In this document: positions 4,755 to 14,786 of the stretch, in pieces
Position numbering within the stretch: the first letter of the stretch is position 1
How the letters are laid out: the number at the start of each line of letters is the position of its first letter
Source: a virus
Length of the DNA stretch: 23,565 bases
IMG/VR virus record: IMGVR_UViG_3300022745_000143
Span: 1-23,565 of that record
Reading direction: 5' to 3' (one strand)
Translations under genes and position numbers: made by a program
Notes under the pieces: model-generated
Database searches by the model: none
Seen by the model: only the letters and a program-made list of their open reading frames with translations
Told to the model about the DNA's origin: nothing

Positions 4755-6502
4755 TGCCCCGTAAAGATGAACCGGGTTCAGGCATTATAGGTCGTGGCGG
4801 GGTTGCAGATGCCATTCGCAACCTCGTCACTAAAGAGTCACGCCTTGATACCGGCGGTGCTATCATGCGTGACCGCTCCTATCCTATTGAGGAAGGGGCG
4901 AACATTGGTTACGAGGAATGGATTAGGCGGTATGCAGGGCATATCGTGACTCGTGATCTAGCACCGGCACACAAGAGAGCATGGGAATGGGCAGAGGGTC
5001 TTAAACGAGGAAAAATGCCCCCCGCGTTCCTTGCGTGTTGGCCTCGTGGTACAGGTAAGTCAACCACTGTTGAGCTTATTGTCTCTCGCCTCTCTCACAC
5101 AGTTAAGCGCAACTTCGTCCTTTACGTCTCTGCAAAGCAAGCGTCTGCTGATAACCATGTCTCTGGCATTGCCGGTCTTATGGAACAGATCGGCATTGAG
5201 AGAGCAGTTACTCAGTACGGTTACTCTAAGGGCTGGACAGCTTCACGGCTTCGCACTGCAAACGGATTCAACGTGCTTGCCTTTGGCCTTGACGCCCATA
5301 CTCGCGGTGTGAAGTTAGATAGTCTCCGTCCCAGCGTTTTGATTTTTGATGATATCGATGAAGAGAATGATTCTGCCACTGTCACGCAGACAAAGATTGA
5401 TGCAATCACCAAGGCTGTTATCCCCGCCGGTTCTCCAGATGTTGCTATCTTCTTTGCACAGAACGCTATCCACGCAGGGTCTATCATGTCTCAAATACTC
5501 AACAAAGAGTTAAATATCCTGCGTAATCGCATAGAAGACGTAGTCCCTGCAATCAACGGATTACGCACTGAAGAGATAGAAATTGGTGGCAGGGAAGTAA
5601 TTAGAATTACGGGGGGTGATTCTGCATGGCCCGGTATTAGTTTGTCTCATTGGGAAGACCTAATGAACGCTACTGACTTACGAGCTTTCCTTGTAGAGTA
5701 CCAACACGAAGTCGGTGCGGGAGGAATGTTCTTTAGGTTCCAAGCAGAGAAGGACGGGCGTGATTGGCACGTTTGCGAACCATTTGAGATACCTAAGCAC
5801 TGGACTGTCTTTGCAGGACACGACTATGGTACAACCGCCGCCGCGTGTTCTTACCTTGCCGCAGTGGACGAATACGGTGACGTGTACGTCTTTGGTGAGG
5901 AGTACAAGGCGGGTCGTGAGAGTGCCGAACAAGCAGAGGCGTTTAGGGATATGTGCCGACGCTACGACGTTGACCCTAAGAACATTATCATTGCCTTTGA
6001 CTGGGCAAACACATTCCCGCCTAAAGAGACTTCACAACGACTTGGCGAGTACCCCGTTGAGAAATGGTGGGCGGTGAATCTCAATGCAGTCATGGCGGTG
6101 AAGGATAGGGTAGCGGGTTGGGCGAACCTAAGATCATGGCTCAGGGAAACGCGCCTTAGTGTGGATGGTACTTACACCCCTAGACTTCGTATCATGCGTG
6201 GTCGCGCCCCCTACCTCCAATCCTTCTTTGAACGTGCCATGGCCGACCCTAGACACCCTGAGGACGTATCCGTAGCAGAGTCTTTAACGCACTCAGGAGA
6301 CGCCTTCCGCTACTGTATGATGCAACGACCACTTGCATCGGCAGGAGAATCAAGTAGTGCCAAAGAAATTAGGACAGCAAAGGGTGACACCGTGACCCTA
6401 CCGGCAGGAATGGATTCCTATATCCGCAAGCAGATGGAGTCTATCCTAACGGGCCGACCGGCGCATGAGTTCAATAAGCCGTACAATCAGACAAGAGGAT
6501 GA
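4754..6502 (+). CDS. terL: Terminase large subunit (packaging ATPase-nuclease)
   Basis: TerL pumps DNA into the prohead and cuts the concatemer. The ATPase part shows Walker A CWPRGTGKSTT at 95-105 and Walker B VLIFDDIDEE at 195-204. The RNase H-like nuclease part shows three acidic sites in the right order: D357 in FAGHDYG, D416 in IIIAFDWAN and D516 in HSGDAFRY. At 582 residues it is complete. The ATG shares one base with the stop of the 39-residue peptide. The last residues, KPYNQTRG, recur almost exactly at the end of the next gene, which is unusual (see the repeat entries). Confidence 0.95.
   Translation: MPRKDEPGSGIIGRGGVADAIRNLVTKESRLDTGGAIMRDRSYPIEEGANIGYEEWIRRYAGHIVTRDLAPAHKRAWEWAEGLKRGKMPPAFLACWPRGTGKSTTVELIVSRLSHTVKRNFVLYVSAKQASADNHVSGIAGLMEQIGIERAVTQYGYSKGWTASRLRTANGFNVLAFGLDAHTRGVKLDSLRPSVLIFDDIDEENDSATVTQTKIDAITKAVIPAGSPDVAIFFAQNAIHAGSIMSQILNKELNILRNRIEDVVPAINGLRTEEIEIGGREVIRITGGDSAWPGISLSHWEDLMNATDLRAFLVEYQHEVGAGGMFFRFQAEKDGRDWHVCEPFEIPKHWTVFAGHDYGTTAAACSYLAAVDEYGDVYVFGEEYKAGRESAEQAEAFRDMCRRYDVDPKNIIIAFDWANTFPPKETSQRLGEYPVEKWWAVNLNAVMAVKDRVAGWANLRSWLRETRLSVDGTYTPRLRIMRGRAPYLQSFFERAMADPRHPEDVSVAESLTHSGDAFRYCMMQRPLASAGESSSAKEIRTAKGDTVTLPAGMDSYIRKQMESILTGRPAHEFNKPYNQTRG
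6476..6502 (+). repeat. Imperfect direct repeat, copy 1 (TerL 3' end)
   Basis: Twenty-seven bases that match 7247-7273 at 23 of 27 positions. It encodes the TerL tail KPYNQTRG and contains AAGAGGA, the ribosome-binding site for the gene at 6506. Confidence 0.85.
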
Positions 6503-6505
6503 AAA

Positions 6506-7273
6506 ATGAAAGAAATCGTAGACTTTGAAAAACTAGAGGAATGGCTTGACCCCGATCAACGCCCAGCCTATTTGAAAGATATTGAGATGCGTCTCATATA
6601 TCGAATTAACGGCGGCGAGTATGCGAAGGACTCTAAAAGCGTAAGGTGCATTATGCCATTCGTTGTCGCCCCGACCTTCTCAAAGTATTGTGGATGGTCT
6701 TATGAAACGTATAAAGAAGCAGAAAGGGTATTCTTCCTAGATAAAGAAAAACCGTTTGGTTCATATACGATACAGCAATACTTAATGCAAGCGTACCCTT
6801 ATAGTAGTATTTGCATGTACACTGAAATCATCAGTGATATATCAGAGATGCTTGAAAAAGGAGTATTCTTCGACCTAAGTGAATCTGATTTTTATTATAC
6901 CCCTGAAGTAGAATCTCCCATCACCGATGAGTATGTATATAAACAATACTACTCTAATAGAAAGAGTAATCCCGAACCTAAGTCTAATGGTGATGCACCA
7001 TCGCTAATTTCTCGCAAGGTGTTTGACTGGCACTTCTTTGAATGGCGAGGAGATATAACAAAACCAATATATGTTTCAAAAGATGGACTGTCAAGTACGG
7101 GGGTAGGGCCATTTATTGACGCGGGAATTGGAGTTGCGCCTATGTCTATCTCTGACGATAACTACGCAGAGGGATTTATGGAAATGCACTTTCCTGATGA
7201 TTCTTCTCTTTGGTGGGAAATGTGTGATGGGACTAAAGTGTTGAAAAAACCGTACAATCAAGCAAGAGGATAA
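6506..7273 (+). CDS. Hypothetical protein (255 aa), probable inserted gene
   Basis: Begins three bases after the TerL stop, with AAGAGGA upstream. The product is acidic and rich in Tyr, Phe, Asp, Glu and Ser, with no membrane segment and no recognised family. Its DNA is clearly AT-richer than its neighbours: hand counts give 21 and 19 G+C of 60 in the lines at 6781 and 6841, against 33 of 60 at 6061 in terL. Its last residues (KPYNQARG) repeat the TerL tail (KPYNQTRG). Together these suggest a later acquisition (a moron-like gene) placed between TerL and the small ORFs through the short repeat. Function unknown. Confidence 0.8.
   Translation: MKEIVDFEKLEEWLDPDQRPAYLKDIEMRLIYRINGGEYAKDSKSVRCIMPFVVAPTFSKYCGWSYETYKEAERVFFLDKEKPFGSYTIQQYLMQAYPYSSICMYTEIISDISEMLEKGVFFDLSESDFYYTPEVESPITDEYVYKQYYSNRKSNPEPKSNGDAPSLISRKVFDWHFFEWRGDITKPIYVSKDGLSSTGVGPFIDAGIGVAPMSISDDNYAEGFMEMHFPDDSSLWWEMCDGTKVLKKPYNQARG
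7247..7273 (+). repeat. Imperfect direct repeat, copy 2 (end of inserted gene)
   Basis: Second copy of the TerL 3'-end repeat, 771 bases after the first. It encodes KPYNQARG and again supplies AAGAGGA as ribosome-binding site, here for the ORF at 7279. Confidence 0.85.
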
Positions 7274-7278
7274 CGACT

Positions 7279-7410
7279 ATGCCAGCAAAGTCAAAAGCAC
7301 AAGTGAAATCGTGTTTCGCTAAGAAAGACCCTAAATGGGACTGCAAGAAGATGGTGAAAGAGACTCCTAACCTTAAATCACTACCGGAACACGTTAAGAA
7401 GAAGAAATGA
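7279..7410 (+). CDS. Small basic protein (43 aa)
   Basis: Too short for standard calling but well supported: ATG 7279 follows AAGAGGA, and the stop overlaps the next start as ATGA. The product begins MPAKSKAQVK and ends EHVKKKK, with about one third Lys, two cysteines (residues 12 and 22) and a WDCKK motif. The MPAKSKAQ beginning is shared by a group of small phage and bacterial proteins of unknown function (DUF3008-like), but the match is too short to be sure. Possibly nucleic-acid binding. Confidence 0.6.
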   Translation: MPAKSKAQVKSCFAKKDPKWDCKKMVKETPNLKSLPEHVKKKK

Positions 7411-7553
7411 CAATCTACGAAGTGGTTAGTTCTATATGTGCCTTTACGATTGCCGTATCTGCAATATCGACTTGCTTAGAGTTTCGTAAGTGGCGACGTG
7501 CCGTTGCGCCTATCCCTGAAGATACGAAAAAACGACCACGAAGAATCACTTGA
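7407..7553 (+). CDS. Small membrane protein (48 aa)
   Basis: ATG overlaps the stop of the preceding ORF (ATGA), with the purine-rich AAGAAGAAG upstream. One hydrophobic segment at about residues 5-24 (EVVSSICAFTIAVSAISTCL) is followed by a strongly basic tail (RKWRRAVAPIPEDTKKRPRR). This N-out, C-in layout is typical of small phage membrane peptides. Its last codons overlap the -35 box of the next promoter. Function unknown. Confidence 0.55.
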   Translation: MTIYEVVSSICAFTIAVSAISTCLEFRKWRRAVAPIPEDTKKRPRRIT

Positions 7554-7580
7554 CACGATTCATAACGTCTATGGTATAAT
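7550..7580 (+). promoter_or_regulatory. Strong sigma70-type promoter for the head genes
   Basis: TTGACA at 7550-7555 and TATAAT at 7575-7580 are both perfect consensus boxes, and TGG directly before TATAAT gives an extended -10. The spacer is 19 bases, two more than optimal, which the extended -10 may compensate. Expected start is near 7587, at the beginning of the structured leader. The -35 overlaps the stop of the upstream ORF. Confidence 0.8.
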
Positions 7581-7586
7581 TGCGTT

Positions 7587-7818
7587 GTGCTGAATCATGG
7601 GGATGAATGGTATCGCCTTAACTATCTTTCGGCCTGTCAAATTTATCGTTCATCCCCATACACAACCATTTATATCAAAGGTTAGCGTCCGTGACTCTAC
7701 TACGGATTGACCCTTGCCTAGTAGCAGGGGATTAACCTTTGGTGTCACTGAATTGGACTCTTCAAGGCTATGCGAAAGTATCCTCAAACCGGGGAGTCTC
7801 TTTATTTGGAGTCCACAA
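7587..7818 (+). ncRNA. Structured leader RNA, candidate cis-regulator
   Basis: No gene lies here. Domain 1: 7597-7607 pairs with 7649-7659 (11 bp), extended by 7608-7612 with 7644-7648, including two G-U pairs; GTG/CAC pairing outside (7587-7589 with 7661-7663) continues it. Domain 2: 7672-7684 pairs with 7733-7745 (13 bp, two G-U) and encloses two hairpins, 7688-7692/7702-7706 and 7711-7717/7724-7730, whose loops are complementary (7698-7701 with 7720-7723). A GCGAAAG hairpin follows at about 7766-7783. GGACTC at 7755-7760 can pair either with 7794-7799 or with 7809-7814, the latter covering the ribosome-binding site GGAG (7808-7811) of the next gene. It may be a translational switch, a stability element or an independent small RNA. 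Confidence 0.6.
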
Positions 7819-8121
7819 ATGCGCCCCATGAAATCTAAAGCAGTTCCTATTCCAAAAGGGCCGGTTGTGCCGACTCCGATGCTTATGCCTGAACCAAAAC
7901 CGGTCGCGGGTATGCCAATGCTAGGCAGTATGGGAGTTGCACCTCCTGCGGGTATCCCTACCCCTTCGCATACGTCGGCGGCACACCTGAATCTTGCTAA
8001 TGTGCAAGGTAAGTCTGCCAAGGCACCTAAGACCGCGCCTATCGCAAAGGCACTTATCTCTCCCGTGCGTAAGAAGTCGGCGTTTCCTCCGCATCCGCTT
8101 AGTAAGAAGAAGGGTTTATAG
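7819..8121 (+). CDS. Pro/Lys/Met-rich small protein (100 aa)
   Basis: The frame runs back to a TTG at 7714, but that part is the structured leader. ATG 7819 has GGAG seven bases upstream and is chosen; ATG 7828 is also possible. The protein is low-complexity: many Pro, Met, Ala and Lys, with a basic C terminus (PLSKKKGL) and no predicted globular fold. The segment GMPMLGSM resembles APMLGGLN in the next protein, which suggests related or co-functioning small proteins. It precedes the portal gene. It could be a minor virion or assembly protein; this is an inference from position only. Confidence 0.65.
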   Translation: MRPMKSKAVPIPKGPVVPTPMLMPEPKPVAGMPMLGSMGVAPPAGIPTPSHTSAAHLNLANVQGKSAKAPKTAPIAKALISPVRKKSAFPPHPLSKKKGL

Positions 8122-8123
8122 AC

Positions 8124-8351
8124 ATGAAGAAAGCATCCTATGGCACGAACAAGGCCAAGAAGATCGGCACTAACGCCTTACCTAAGCACCCTGCACGTCA
8201 TGCCGGTTCTAAGACCCTTAAACCTAAGGTGCAAGCGGTTAAGATGAAGGCTATGGATGCACCGATGCTAGGTGGCCTGAATAGCAAACCAATGACGGCA
8301 CCAGTTACGGGCAAGAAGATGAAAAAGTCTTGCGACGGAGATATGGACTAA
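8124..8351 (+). CDS. Lys-rich small protein (75 aa)
   Basis: Starts two bases after the preceding stop, with AAGAAGAAGGG upstream. About one quarter of residues are Lys (for example KKASYGTNKAKKIG, KVQAVKMKAMD, GKKMKKSCDGDMD), giving a very basic, probably disordered chain. Shares PMLGG with the neighbouring 100-residue protein. Such charge could serve DNA binding within the capsid or RNA binding, but no family was recognised. The portal gene begins one base after its stop. Confidence 0.65.
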   Translation: MKKASYGTNKAKKIGTNALPKHPARHAGSKTLKPKVQAVKMKAMDAPMLGGLNSKPMTAPVTGKKMKKSCDGDMD

Positions 8352-10692: not shown

Positions 10693-11985
10693 ATGGGTCG
10701 CCGACCTTCACAACCTGATATGCCCGTAGTGTTTGATGAACCGCTTGACGATATTAGTTCAGATGCGTCGTTTGACACTTCTGAGTCGCCTGTATCTGAT
10801 GTACCTCCGGTGGTAACGTATGGCGAGGATGATATTCTTGCCGCACTTCGTTCCGCACCGACGTTTAAGGAAGGTTCGTTTTCGGATAACACCTTTGACT
10901 TGATGCCTTCTGCTCACCAAGACACCATTCGTGATAGTGAGAGCAATCCGCTCTCTGATCTCGAAATGACTGCTCGTTCCTTCCGCTCTAACGTCAACCT
11001 AGAAGATGATGAAGATGGAGACGAAGATGATGGTTTTGGTGAAGGTGAGGAAGCAGATGCAGACGAGCAAGCGGAGCGCGACTTCCTTCTATCGGAAGAT
11101 GAAGACGAAGGCGAAGAAGCGGGAGACACGGACGAAGAGGGCGAAGATGCGAACGAGGACGATGGAGCAGATGAACTAGAAGATGGTACACCTGCACCTA
11201 AGACTCGCAAGACTGCCGCTGACAAGGCACTAGAGGAGCGAATCGCCGCACAAGAAAAGGCGTTTAACGACAGACTAGCAGAAATGCAAAAGGTACTTGA
11301 CGCTAACCTTGCGGAGGTTCAGAGGGCAAAGGCCGAGGCACTTGCTGAGAAGCAAGAACTCTCCTTACAATCTGAGCGACAGAAACAAATCTCTATCGCA
11401 GAGGCAGAGGTTCGTGCTAAGTTCGTTGACCTAGAAGAACTTGATAACGATGCTTTTCGTGAACTCGTAGATGCCCGTGTTTCCAAGTGGGAGGGCGGTC
11501 GTCGCGAGGAGTTAGGCAAGCAAGCGGCACAAGAGGCGCAGAAGGCAAATGCTGAGTTTCAAGCACAGCAAGTGCAACTACAGCGTCAACAGTCCTATGC
11601 TTCCTACAAGGCGAATCTACCCAAGGGCCATGAACTCATGGGTGTAGAGGCGATTGAGGGGCAAGGGACATGGGCCGACCTAACAGCAGAAATGCACGAA
11701 GCACTTGCCGTTGCGGGTTTAGAAGTGCCTAACTTCGCTGAGTTTGCTTCTAACTTTGCACCGATGCTTCAAGCGGTTCACCAACGCGGCTTCAAGGCGG
11801 GTGCGGCAAAAGCAACGGCACGGGCGGCGCGTGGGAAGTCTGCTCCTCCTCCCATCACGGGAGAGGGTGGCGGCTCACAACCAACGGCAAAAGCAACCGG
11901 CAAACCTAGTTTCCAACTCCCGACGAGTCTAGCGAACTGGGTGCCAAACTATCTCGGAGATATGCAGAGTAAGCGTGGTCGGTAG
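10693..11985 (+). CDS. Putative scaffolding protein
   Basis: Start ATG has AAGGA seven bases upstream. The 430-residue protein lies between portal and major capsid genes, the standard place for a scaffold, which guides prohead assembly and then leaves. Residues about 103-165 are an almost uninterrupted Asp/Glu run (EDDEDGDEDDGFGEGEE and later), and 175-300 form Gln/Ala/Glu-rich coiled coil. The C terminus (about 370-430) is basic with Pro/Gly linkers and a final QLPTSLANWVPNYLGDM segment, suited to capsid-protein contact. Scaffolds share composition rather than sequence, so the call rests on layout and position. No protease motif was seen. Confidence 0.75.
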   Translation: MGRRPSQPDMPVVFDEPLDDISSDASFDTSESPVSDVPPVVTYGEDDILAALRSAPTFKEGSFSDNTFDLMPSAHQDTIRDSESNPLSDLEMTARSFRSNVNLEDDEDGDEDDGFGEGEEADADEQAERDFLLSEDEDEGEEAGDTDEEGEDANEDDGADELEDGTPAPKTRKTAADKALEERIAAQEKAFNDRLAEMQKVLDANLAEVQRAKAEALAEKQELSLQSERQKQISIAEAEVRAKFVDLEELDNDAFRELVDARVSKWEGGRREELGKQAAQEAQKANAEFQAQQVQLQRQQSYASYKANLPKGHELMGVEAIEGQGTWADLTAEMHEALAVAGLEVPNFAEFASNFAPMLQAVHQRGFKAGAAKATARAARGKSAPPPITGEGGGSQPTAKATGKPSFQLPTSLANWVPNYLGDMQSKRGR

Positions 11986-12018
11986 GCCATAGCGCGAGGG
12001 CATCACTTTCCGAAAACC

Positions 12019-12109
12019 GGGCGATGATTCGTTATCGCCCTTACCCCTTCGATGGGGCGGGTTCTCTCTGAGAACAATCTAGGCCATTTAGGGATTCCCT
12101 ATGTGGCCT
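12019..12109 (+). promoter_or_regulatory. Hairpin-rich leader upstream of the capsid gene
   Basis: The 169-base gap holds four hairpins: 12019-12027/12032-12040 with a UUCG loop; 12044-12047/12054-12057; GTTCTC/GAGAAC at 12061-12066/12070-12075; and a two-part stem 12081-12086/12104-12109 with an inner stem 12089-12093/12097-12101. No clear promoter or U-tract terminator is seen. Such arrays often protect or process the abundant capsid mRNA. Confidence 0.55.
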
Positions 12110-12154
12110 TTGTCTTTAGTTCCTTGGCGGATAGTCAAGGGCAGGAGAAAAACA

Positions 12155-13222
12155 ATGGCAGTTAGTACAACGGCCCTCAACTACTCTGAGTATGCGCTCC
12201 TTGCTGACGTTCCTCAGCGTAACCGTGAGGCGGCCCTCTCGTTCATCAAGTACGGTTCCGTGCTTACCGACATTGCGACTAAGACCGAGAACACCCTTGA
12301 GTCTAGTGGTATGCGCTATCTTGGGTTTAGCAACACTCCGGGCTGGGTAAACATCAACGAAGCACCGTCTGCTACCAAGAACGTCCCGTCTCCATGGGCC
12401 GAGCAGAAGTACATGGCGGCGTTCAACGTTGAGGTTTCTAAGGTCTATGCGGCGGCCAAGGGCAGTGGTGGTCTTTCGGCCCTCACCAACAAGATGCTTG
12501 ACCCTGCGGTCATGGCGCACGTCTTTGACCTGAACTACAAGTTCTTCAACAACCGTCGCAGTGCTATCACCGGTAGCACCACGGACGGTACTGCTGACTT
12601 CAACAGCAAGTGTTTCAATGGACTTCGCTATCGCCTGAGTGCGGCGGGTCGTTCACAGTACGGTATTCCCTCGGAATGTAAGATCACCTCTTCGAGTGCT
12701 GACCTCACCTCGGCGAATATCTCTTCGTCTAACGTGATGAAGGTGTACCGTGCGATGCTTGACGCTCTTGAGATTGTCGGCGCACCGGACGGTGAGAACT
12801 GTACGTTCTACGCCAACCAGAACGTGTGGTCGGGTCTTGAGGCATCCCCGCTTGTCACGACTCACTCGCTCTTTGGCGATGACAACGATATGTTCGGCAA
12901 TAAGGTGCTTACCTTGCGTAACGCCAAGATTCGCCGTGCGGGTCGTGCCGTTCCTAACACTGCCGGTACTCAGGCACAGATTCTTCCGAACACCGAGGAT
13001 TCAACCGGTGAACTGATTGGTTCTAGCACCCTGACTTCTATTTTCTTGGTGAAGTCCGGTGCTGATTCCTTCTGCTTCAACCAGTTCAAAGCCCCCGGTG
13101 CTGACGACCCACGTCAAGCGGAAGATGGTGTGACTTGGCTAACTACTTGGTGGAACCTGTATGGCCTTGAGCAACAGAACAACCGTGCAATCGCGCAGAT
13201 TTACGGCATCACTGCGGCCTAG
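12155..13222 (+). CDS. Major capsid protein
   Basis: The main shell protein. The frame extends back to an ATG at 12101, but that lies in the last leader hairpin; ATG 12155 has AGGAG seven bases upstream and gives MAVSTTALNYSEYALL, so I choose it (355 aa). Size, location directly after the scaffold-like gene and the amino-acid character (beta-rich, ending in an MCP-like GLEQQNNRAIAQIYGI) fit an HK97-fold capsid protein of the kind found with Bbp16/Bbp17-type podoviruses. The codon use is smooth and the leader is highly structured, as expected for a heavily expressed gene. The fold itself cannot be proven by eye. Confidence 0.85.
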   Translation: MAVSTTALNYSEYALLADVPQRNREAALSFIKYGSVLTDIATKTENTLESSGMRYLGFSNTPGWVNINEAPSATKNVPSPWAEQKYMAAFNVEVSKVYAAAKGSGGLSALTNKMLDPAVMAHVFDLNYKFFNNRRSAITGSTTDGTADFNSKCFNGLRYRLSAAGRSQYGIPSECKITSSSADLTSANISSSNVMKVYRAMLDALEIVGAPDGENCTFYANQNVWSGLEASPLVTTHSLFGDDNDMFGNKVLTLRNAKIRRAGRAVPNTAGTQAQILPNTEDSTGELIGSSTLTSIFLVKSGADSFCFNQFKAPGADDPRQAEDGVTWLTTWWNLYGLEQQNNRAIAQIYGITAA

Positions 13223-13292
13223 TCCTAGGGACTATCGTTTCTTGCCGCTCCTGATATGGGGCGGCATTGCACAATAACCTAGTTCGCTAGGT
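13220..13292 (+). promoter_or_regulatory. Three hairpins between capsid and cement genes
   Basis: TAGTCC/GGACTA starts on the capsid stop codon (13220-13225/13229-13234). A nine-pair GC-rich stem follows (13243-13251/13258-13266, one G-U, loop TGATAT), with no U-tract after it. The third is ACCTAG-TTCG-CTAGGT (13277-13292), a UUCG-capped stem directly before the GAGGA ribosome-binding site. They may stabilise the capsid mRNA 3' end or attenuate read-through. Confidence 0.55.
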
Positions 13293-13305
13293 GAGGATAT
13301 AAACA

Positions 13306-13692
13306 ATGGCAGTAGATGCCCTTTGTTCTCTCTATAGTGCTTCTATTACCTCTGCGGGTAGTAGTGGCACGGCATTTGACTTGAAGATCGGCACCCCTGC
13401 GGAGGGGTTGCCGATCAAGGTCAAACTTAGCGGAGGTGCTACCTCCTCGTCCACGACCACAATGGCGATCAGTATCACTGCGTCGGATGATAACTTCACC
13501 ACGACTCATGAGACGCTGTACTCGAAAACCATTACCTTTACCACGACTAACTACGCACAGGATTTTGAGGAGGTTTACTCCATCCAAACCCAGCGTCGTT
13601 ATATTCGCGTGGTTGTTGGAAACCCCGGTGCTACCCTTGGTACTGCGGCGGTGGTTAGTGTGGATATTGTTACGGGCAAGTTGAACCCGTAA
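13306..13692 (+). CDS. Putative capsid cement/stabilisation protein
   Basis: A 128-residue, Ser/Thr/Gly/Val-rich protein directly after the major capsid gene. The alternating pattern (AISITASDDN, KTITFTTTN, RRYIRVVVGN, AAVVSVDIVTG) suggests a beta-sandwich. Position, size and strand pattern match the small jelly-roll cement proteins such as Bbp16 of Bordetella phage BPP-1, which bind the outside of the capsid. This is a pattern-level match and not a proven homology. It could also be a head fibre base. The start has GAGGA upstream, immediately after a UUCG hairpin, and a strong terminator-like hairpin follows the gene. Confidence 0.5.
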   Translation: MAVDALCSLYSASITSAGSSGTAFDLKIGTPAEGLPIKVKLSGGATSSSTTTMAISITASDDNFTTTHETLYSKTITFTTTNYAQDFEEVYSIQTQRRYIRVVVGNPGATLGTAAVVSVDIVTGKLNP

Positions 13693-14030: not shown

Positions 14031-14786
14031 GTGGGAATGTTAGAACTCTTTTCTGCCTTCTCTGTGGCGCAGGGAGGTGTTCCAAGTTTTGCATTTTGCA
14101 CTCTTTTAGTCATGAGTGAAAACCGTAAGTTTAAGACGTTTTTCGCTATGACATGGGAAACACTTGGCGGTATCTTAGGTTCTGTTGTTGCCGTAGGCGC
14201 ACTTGCTAAATCCTCTTGGAACTACGGATGCGTTGTGCGTAAGCGTCGTGAAGATCGCAAACGTGAGGATGATGAAAACCGAGAGACGTTAAAGAACTTC
14301 CCTGAGGCAATGAGGCGGTTTAGCGAAGCAACGAAACAGATAGAGGAGATAGGTAAAGGGGTAGAGGCGAACACGGTTATGCTTGAGACGGTAAGCAAGC
14401 AGATATCAGGCGTTCGTAAAGATCAGGACTACTACCGGCAACTCAAAGAGATCGAACTTGATGAAGCAGGAGTATGCTGGTTTGAGTGCGACAAAGAGGG
14501 GCGTACCACGGCGGTATCGCAGAACCTTTGTTCGCTCTTTGGTTTGACAGAAGATCAAATGCTCAAGGACGGTAGCGGATGGTTGACCGTGATAGAGGAG
14601 CAGGACTTTGTTTATAAGCAATGGATTAACGCTGTTACTCAACACTTGCCTTATCGTTCTACTTACATGGTACGCAGGAAAAGCGGCGAGTCGTTTTATG
14701 TGGAGTCCTCTGCGGTGCGAATTGAGTACGACGGTGAGACATATCGCTATCGTGGTGTAGTCCGTAGACTAGATGGGGTAAAATAG
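14031..14786 (+). CDS. Membrane-anchored coiled-coil PAS-domain protein
   Basis: GTG start directly after the previous stop; GAGGG lies seven bases before it, a better distance than for the ATG at 14037. Layout of the 251 residues: a hydrophobic N-terminal stretch (about 4-28), a second hydrophobic segment (about 43-67, TLGGILGSVVAVGALAKSSW), a basic stop-transfer (70-80, RKRREDRKRED), a helical coiled coil (about 80-140), then a PAS-type fold at about 141-248. PAS features: LDEAGVCWFECDKEGRTT, an NLCSLFGLTEDQML helix, GWLTVIEEQD, YMVRRKSGESFYVESSAVR and RYRGVVRRLDG. PAS domains bind small ligands or partners and sense redox, light or metabolites. No kinase, cyclase or DNA-binding domain follows, so it may act through the membrane or the neighbouring holin-like protein; this is inference. 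Confidence 0.75.
   Translation: MGMLELFSAFSVAQGGVPSFAFCTLLVMSENRKFKTFFAMTWETLGGILGSVVAVGALAKSSWNYGCVVRKRREDRKREDDENRETLKNFPEAMRRFSEATKQIEEIGKGVEANTVMLETVSKQISGVRKDQDYYRQLKEIELDEAGVCWFECDKEGRTTAVSQNLCSLFGLTEDQMLKDGSGWLTVIEEQDFVYKQWINAVTQHLPYRSTYMVRRKSGESFYVESSAVRIEYDGETYRYRGVVRRLDGVK

Follow-up and report, generated by a model that had tools for sequence, protein, structure and literature searches.

A probable abiF-type RNA in the 5' leader of a phage late operon and its possible action as a decoy antitoxin

The window analyzed here is a virus contig of 23,565 bases, taken at its full length (IMGVR_UViG_3300022745_000143), in which the gene order is terminase, portal, scaffold and capsid, the scaffold and capsid genes being assigned from position and size only. 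The leader that is the subject of this report has on its 5' side a small ORF for a membrane protein (7407-7553) and on its 3' side two short low-complexity ORFs, which are followed by the portal gene. The first of these short ORFs has no match in Pfam, PHROG, PADLOC or PDB, and the second has no match in family searches of the Pfam, PHROG and PADLOC type. An (A/M)PMLG motif is common to both, and together with an ORF at 7279-7407 they make up three small Lys/Pro-rich ORFs around the leader. Two further small ORFs inside the leader (7597-7710 and 7770-7838) were set aside, as neither has a proper Shine-Dalgarno (SD) sequence. The features of the locus are as follows:

7550-7580, + strand: sigma70-type promoter, with TTGACA at 7550-7555, a 19-nt spacer and TATAAT at 7575-7580, preceded by TGG
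7587-7818, + strand: structured 5' leader of 232 nt, with a putative start at about 7587
7597-7659, + strand: 5' hairpin, an inverted repeat with a 16-bp stem (7597-7612/7644-7659) and a 31-nt loop
7672-7745, + strand: three-way junction, with P1 at 7672-7685/7732-7745, P2 at 7687-7693/7701-7707 and P3 at 7711-7717/7724-7730
7754-7815, + strand: alternative helix (7754-7761/7808-7815), which would mask the SD sequence and exclude the abiF-type fold
7755-7799, + strand: probable abiF-type RNA hairpin, with outer stem 7755-7763/7791-7799 and unpaired A7764
7765-7784, + strand: interior of this hairpin, with an AGG/CCU stem (7765-7767/7782-7784) and an AUGC-GAAA-GUAU hairpin (7770-7781)
7785-7790, + strand: conserved single strand CAAACC, in the 3' part of the abiF-type hairpin
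7797-7807, + strand: U-rich run UCUCUUUAUUU, 3' of the abiF-type hairpin, in a weak terminator-like arrangement
7808-7821, + strand: SD sequence GGAG (7808-7811) and start codon ATG (7819)
7819-8121, + strand: 100-aa low-complexity ORF rich in Pro, Lys, Ala and Met, which is not AbiF
8124-8351, + strand: 75-aa Lys-rich ORF, with the portal gene directly after it

The distribution of this unit among relatives of the phage bears on its history. A scan for terminase motifs recovered about 60 phages with TerL proteins mostly 44-50% identical to that of the window. In the members of this clade whose portal gene could be placed, TerL, the small membrane-protein ORF and the portal are contiguous, with no gap, and the leader unit is absent. 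Thus, the promoter, the leader and the two short ORFs are an addition in the lineage of the window. Queries with TerL, portal and capsid found no relatives in the viral contig collection, and a TerL alignment search of genome contigs gave one remote match. A query with the exonuclease returned 80 loci, the closest of which (L003, 65%) has only the exonuclease gene in common with the window. In the loci recovered by the terminase scan, blastn and nhmmer found no leader homologue, and none was found in plasmids.

Several other observations were made in the window. Positions 6469-6500 and 7240-7271 form a 32-nt direct repeat (84%), which suggests an insertion with duplication of the end of the TerL gene. 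The 255-aa ORF that follows TerL has a C-terminal end that copies the TerL C-terminus (KPYNQxRG). A perfect 17-bp hairpin at 749-786, between convergent genes, is probably a two-way terminator. A ThyX thymidylate synthase gene (Pfam Thy1, E 6e-30) lies on the - strand at 1319-2086, and a 251-aa ORF at 14031-14786 has a PAS fold, which is unusual for a virion gene block.

The initial annotation, made from the sequence before any search, had placed a consensus promoter ahead of the leader, and this was confirmed: the promoter is the sole 12 of 12 hexamer match in the window, versus 0.02 expected in shuffles. Its -35 hexamer shares positions with the stop codon that closes the small membrane-protein ORF. 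A scan limited to spacers of 16-18 nt missed it because of its 19-nt spacer and TG-extended -10. Transcripts would be expected to start near 7587.

Compared with 500 dinucleotide shuffles, the whole leader has a fold z score of -4.1 on the + strand and -0.9 on the - strand. The 5' hairpin (z -3.6), the stem of which consists of 14 Watson-Crick and 2 G-U pairs, and the three-way junction (z -4.1, matched by 0 of 500 shuffles) both lie where they had been proposed, the latter as a stem 7672-7684/7733-7745 enclosing two hairpins. Both exceed their shuffles in stability on the + strand and do so clearly less on the - strand. The two loops of the junction are complementary, as had also been noticed, CUACUA (7697-7702) facing UAGUAG (7719-7724); a complementarity of 6 bp is found in about 0.5% of random loops, and the 6 bp form only with three loop-closing pairs opened, 3 bp lying inside the strict loops. 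No homologue of the junction was found with a covariance model (R1) in 178 sources (about 2 Mb), nor in Rfam, phages, plasmids or related loci. The earlier view that it belongs to no purine riboswitch class was upheld, that class being ruled out by junction linkers that measure 1, 3 and 1 nt and by the lack of any such Rfam match to E 10. A phi29-type packaging RNA was also ruled out, as there is no Rfam match and the packaging gene is a TerL-type terminase. Other structured stretches of the window, for example the capsid leader, have stronger z scores, and the leader is therefore not unique in its degree of structure. The capsid leader (11985-12154) and the intergenic region that follows it (13222-13305) are strongly structured, and the SD segments at 12138-12162 and 13289-13313 are near-repeats.

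Relaxed blastn searches revealed that the core of the hairpin at 7755-7799 is identical at 28 of 30 positions (7763-7792) to an unannotated element located 5' of tRNA-Pro in cluster-L mycobacteriophages (E 6e-3 with a 250-nt query and 1e-3 with an 81-nt query). This match spans exactly the interior of the hairpin. The window element and that of Faith1 fold alike, with an outer stem, an unpaired A, an AGG/CCU inner stem, a CU bulge and an AUGC-GNRA-GUAU hairpin, closed in both by a GNRA tetraloop and followed by single-stranded CAAACC. The outer stem, which is GGACUCUUC/GGGGAGUCU in the window versus CAUUGCC/GGCAAUG in the cluster-L element, pairs in both. A search of Rfam, as the initial annotation had proposed, gave abiF RNA (RF03085) as the best match of the window and cluster-L elements (15 and 17 bits), the 15.0 bits of the window element being below the gathering threshold of 37 bits. 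The window element has the consensus secondary structure of RF03085 and its core CAAG...CUCAAANCGG, and this core pattern, expected 0.02 times per window, was found once. No abiF (Abi_2) gene is adjacent, with no PF07751 in the window record and no PADLOC match. Because the gathering score was missed and there is no abiF gene, the window element is not filed as RF03085.

A covariance model (R2) was built from eight mycobacteriophage elements with the window excluded, and its only match in the window is at 7756-7797 (26.5 bits, E 2.7e-5, a rough value owing to the short calibration). In an alignment of 11 sequences, in which the window element and two others joined the mycobacteriophage set, A-A-G, C-U, CUCAAA and G are invariant, and the stem has 21 cells changed on both sides versus 6.7 +/- 2.4 in shuffles (0 of 500); this shuffle test ignores relatedness, and slid controls, which keep relatedness, reach at most 12 versus the 21. 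The covariation that had been suggested as a check on the leader was obtained for the hairpin and not for the junction, for which the searches gave no homologue. On these grounds the assignment of 7755-7799 as an abiF-type RNA is well supported, and the window element is very probably related to abiF RNA. The leader would then carry an abiF-type RNA with no toxin gene beside it, diverged from the RNA antitoxin that holds the host's AbiF (Abi_2, a HEPN RNase) inactive. Cas13 is believed to have arisen from the AbiF toxin family.

Similar RNAs are found in a number of other phages. Bromden possesses a bona fide abiF RNA (40.5 bits) between tRNA-Gly and tRNA-Lys, and a blast search with this RNA returned 46 phage records (42 Mycobacterium, 2 Arthrobacter and 2 Synechococcus), several examined members of which have the abiF RNA among tRNA genes. 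LittleE, Aziz, Thibault, Snenia and Bromden all contain abiF RNA above the cutoff according to cmscan. Bona fide abiF RNAs, unannotated in the respective records, lie at L219:3823-3859, L224:1504-1539, L225:1509-1545, L226:1502-1538 and L228:1504-1541, in mycobacteriophages without an Abi_2 gene, and several of them are inside tRNA arrays. Over 1.18 Mb of related loci, the sole R2 match to E 1 was in L195, where positions 11965-12000 form an abiF RNA over the Rfam cutoff 5 nt upstream of tRNA-Asn. Two TerL-related phages contain abiF-type RNAs, one of them this same element (L195/G298, 40.5 bits, over the cutoff) and the other at 31.5 bits (G323). Among 296 actinobacterial genomes R2 gave one match (52.6 bits), immediately 5' of a gene for an Abi_2 protein (PF07751, E 1e-32), which serves as a positive control. 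No Abi_2 gene was found in the nine records tested (the window, the 46-kb record of L195 and seven mycobacteriophages). DNA of phage sk1 reportedly protects another phage from AbiF, to judge by the title of a cited paper; R2 has no match in phage sk1.

The segment 7754-7763 can pair with 7791-7799 or with 7808-7815, which bears out the proposal that GGACTC (7755-7760) is able to pair with either copy of GGAGTC. The copy at 7794-7799 does pair; its supposed role as a decoy for the SD sequence did not stand, this copy being the 3' arm of the abiF-type hairpin, with relatives and a covarying stem. A 6-mer able to pair with both the SD sequence and a second copy occurs in 0.3% of shuffles, in a test that was defined post hoc. 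The SD domain has a z score of only -1.4 (45 of 500 shuffles), and the SD region is paired 0.51 on average. As the domain is not unusually structured and the occlusion is ordinary among the gene starts of the window, the translational switch that had been proposed here is weak. In predicted ensembles the abiF fold has a probability of 0.93-0.94 when the RNA ends no later than 7808 and of 0.92 with a ribosome placed on 7803-7834, and of only 0.01-0.03 in full-length mRNA (to 7850 or 7900). The probability of the competing SD helix is 0.93 when the RNA stops at 7815-7830 and falls to 0.24 at 7850 and 0 at 7900. In the growing transcript the upstream pairing is predicted to form first and to be replaced by the SD-covering helix once 7815 has been made; with coding sequence to 7900 included, neither fold is predicted to survive. 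A terminator that would release the abiF-type hairpin is weak, and a terminator scan gave no excess over shuffles.

The explanation that we hold to be somewhat probable is that the orphan abiF-type RNA of the leader acts in trans as a decoy antitoxin. It builds on the promoter sequence, the strand-specific fold and the homologous elements with a covarying stem in other phages that were obtained here, as well as on the occurrence of the motif ahead of Abi_2 in a bacterium and the lack of Abi_2 in the phage records tested. More specifically, the strong promoter would give rise to a transcript starting with the 5' hairpin and the three-way junction, and these structures may protect and position the abiF-type RNA. 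The abiF-type hairpin would fold before transcription is complete, in a terminated or processed RNA, or with the SD and start region occupied by a ribosome, and would bind host AbiF and keep it in, or return it to, its neutral state, so that the infection would not be aborted. Fold prediction favors such a decoy for RNA ending at or before 7808 or for a ribosome on the SD sequence and start codon, and not for the free full-length mRNA. Further points against the decoy are the sub-threshold Rfam score, the weak terminator, the absence of the leader unit from phages with related TerL whose portal could be placed and the missing R2 match in sk1. In Clostridioides difficile the abiF RNA RCd22 is transcribed from a SigA promoter, with most transcripts terminating ahead of abiF, and it neutralizes AbiF in trans by direct binding, an activity that is lost with stem-breaking mutations and kept with stem-preserving ones (PMC12373285). 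Single-stranded bulge nucleotides inhibit the RNase in the PbAbiF complex, according to a review (PMC12737573). An orphan abiF-type RNA that a phage transcribes from a strong promoter should bind this protein too.

Alternatively the leader may act in cis, which is possible and in our view doubtful. Since the abiF-type hairpin, which leaves the SD sequence free, and the SD helix exclude each other, folding, a bound protein or weak termination could tune translation of the 100-aa ORF and the virion genes. This incompatibility of the two folds, of which the abiF fold forms first and then gives way to the helix 7754-7761/7808-7815, is consistent with such control, as are the rarity of the doubly pairing 6-mer and the finding that RCd22 also acts in cis by premature termination in C. 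difficile (PMC12373285). However, the low z score of the SD domain, an SD occlusion similar to that of other gene starts, the loss of the SD helix with coding sequence to 7900 and the poor quality of the U-run at 7797-7807 as a terminator argue against it. The same points weigh on the reading from which this analysis started, a switch that sequesters the SD sequence with a decoy copy, or a riboswitch of some unknown class with the three-way junction at its center. The pairings for it exist, and both the z score of the junction and the chance level of its loop complementarity are in its favor; the junction nevertheless offers no covariation, and the searches described above gave no homologue of it, and this reading appears extremely improbable.

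The element could also be what is left of an AbiF operon whose toxin gene has been replaced, the abiF RNA having persisted without present function. The order of promoter, abiF-motif RNA, ribosome-binding site and gene is the layout of RCd22 and abiF in C. difficile (PMC12373285), and the absence of the leader unit from phages with related TerL would agree with such an origin. Against this, abiF-type RNAs without a toxin gene are found repeatedly in phages that are not related to one another, and compensating changes have preserved their stem; a functionless remnant is quite unlikely. Finally, the region may be a plain structured 5' leader that stabilizes the late mRNA, its resemblance to abiF RNA being coincidental. 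This would suit a 5' hairpin 10 nt from the putative start, given that structure at the 5' end impedes RppH and RNase E (PMC3997798), and a junction for which no homologue was found, but it would not explain why the core is conserved, why the stem covaries and why the model built without the window finds the hairpin, and it is very unlikely.

The decoy antitoxin may be extended to a broader, and in our estimation unlikely, reading in which the leader is both a sensor of AbiF and a decoy for it, and in which the orphan abiF-type RNAs of phages are an unrecognized class of RNA anti-AbiF. AbiF bound to 7755-7799 would block the SD helix, so that the toxin would be neutralized and translation of the downstream operon raised when AbiF is present. 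If phages widely carry orphan abiF-type RNAs, these may constitute a class of RNA counter-defense parallel to the RNA anti-CRISPRs. Many of the RNAs of this proposed class are in tRNA arrays, and such a class, if real, is present in well-known mycobacteriophages, unannotated in the records examined, and would represent a second function to look for in existing collections of tRNA-array phages. Within an incomplete coverage of the literature, no paper was found on the orphan abiF RNAs of mycobacteriophages or on a role for them as anti-AbiF decoys.

Comparison with known systems places the window element close to the abiF RNAs of RF03085, with which it has in common the outer stem, the unpaired A, the inner AG(G/C)...(C/G)CU stem, the 3' single strand CAAA(C/U)(C/G), the invariant core bases and the layout of promoter, leader and ribosome-binding site. 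It differs from them in its score (15 bits versus the 37-bit cutoff) and in a longer inner hairpin with a GNRA loop. Unlike RCd22, which has two motifs, the window has one, and unlike abiF RNA systems it has no abiF gene, the motif forming part of a 232-nt leader that also contains a three-way junction. The cluster-L element (Faith1, Finemlucis, Bromden) is alike in its core (28 of 30 positions in Faith1), inner hairpin and single strand, whereas its outer-stem sequence is different and it is found in a tRNA array rather than in a late-operon leader. Cyanophage S-CREM1 provides another abiF-type RNA in a lytic phage, an orphan sRNA whose function was left open (PMC9964418); in contrast to the window element it scores 51.6 bits in Rfam. 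The proposed principle, a phage-made mimic of a type III antitoxin RNA, resembles that of phage phiTE, where a pseudo-ToxI RNA counters a type III toxin (PMC10286901). ToxI differs in being a pseudoknot repeat of 36 nt, and its toxin, ToxN, is unrelated in sequence. Viral solitary CRISPR repeats located just after promoters act as RNA anti-CRISPRs (PMC10651486). These solitary repeat units (Racrs) mimic CRISPR repeats and not an AbiF antitoxin, and they share with the window the arrangement of a single defense-RNA motif near a viral promoter in the absence of defense genes.
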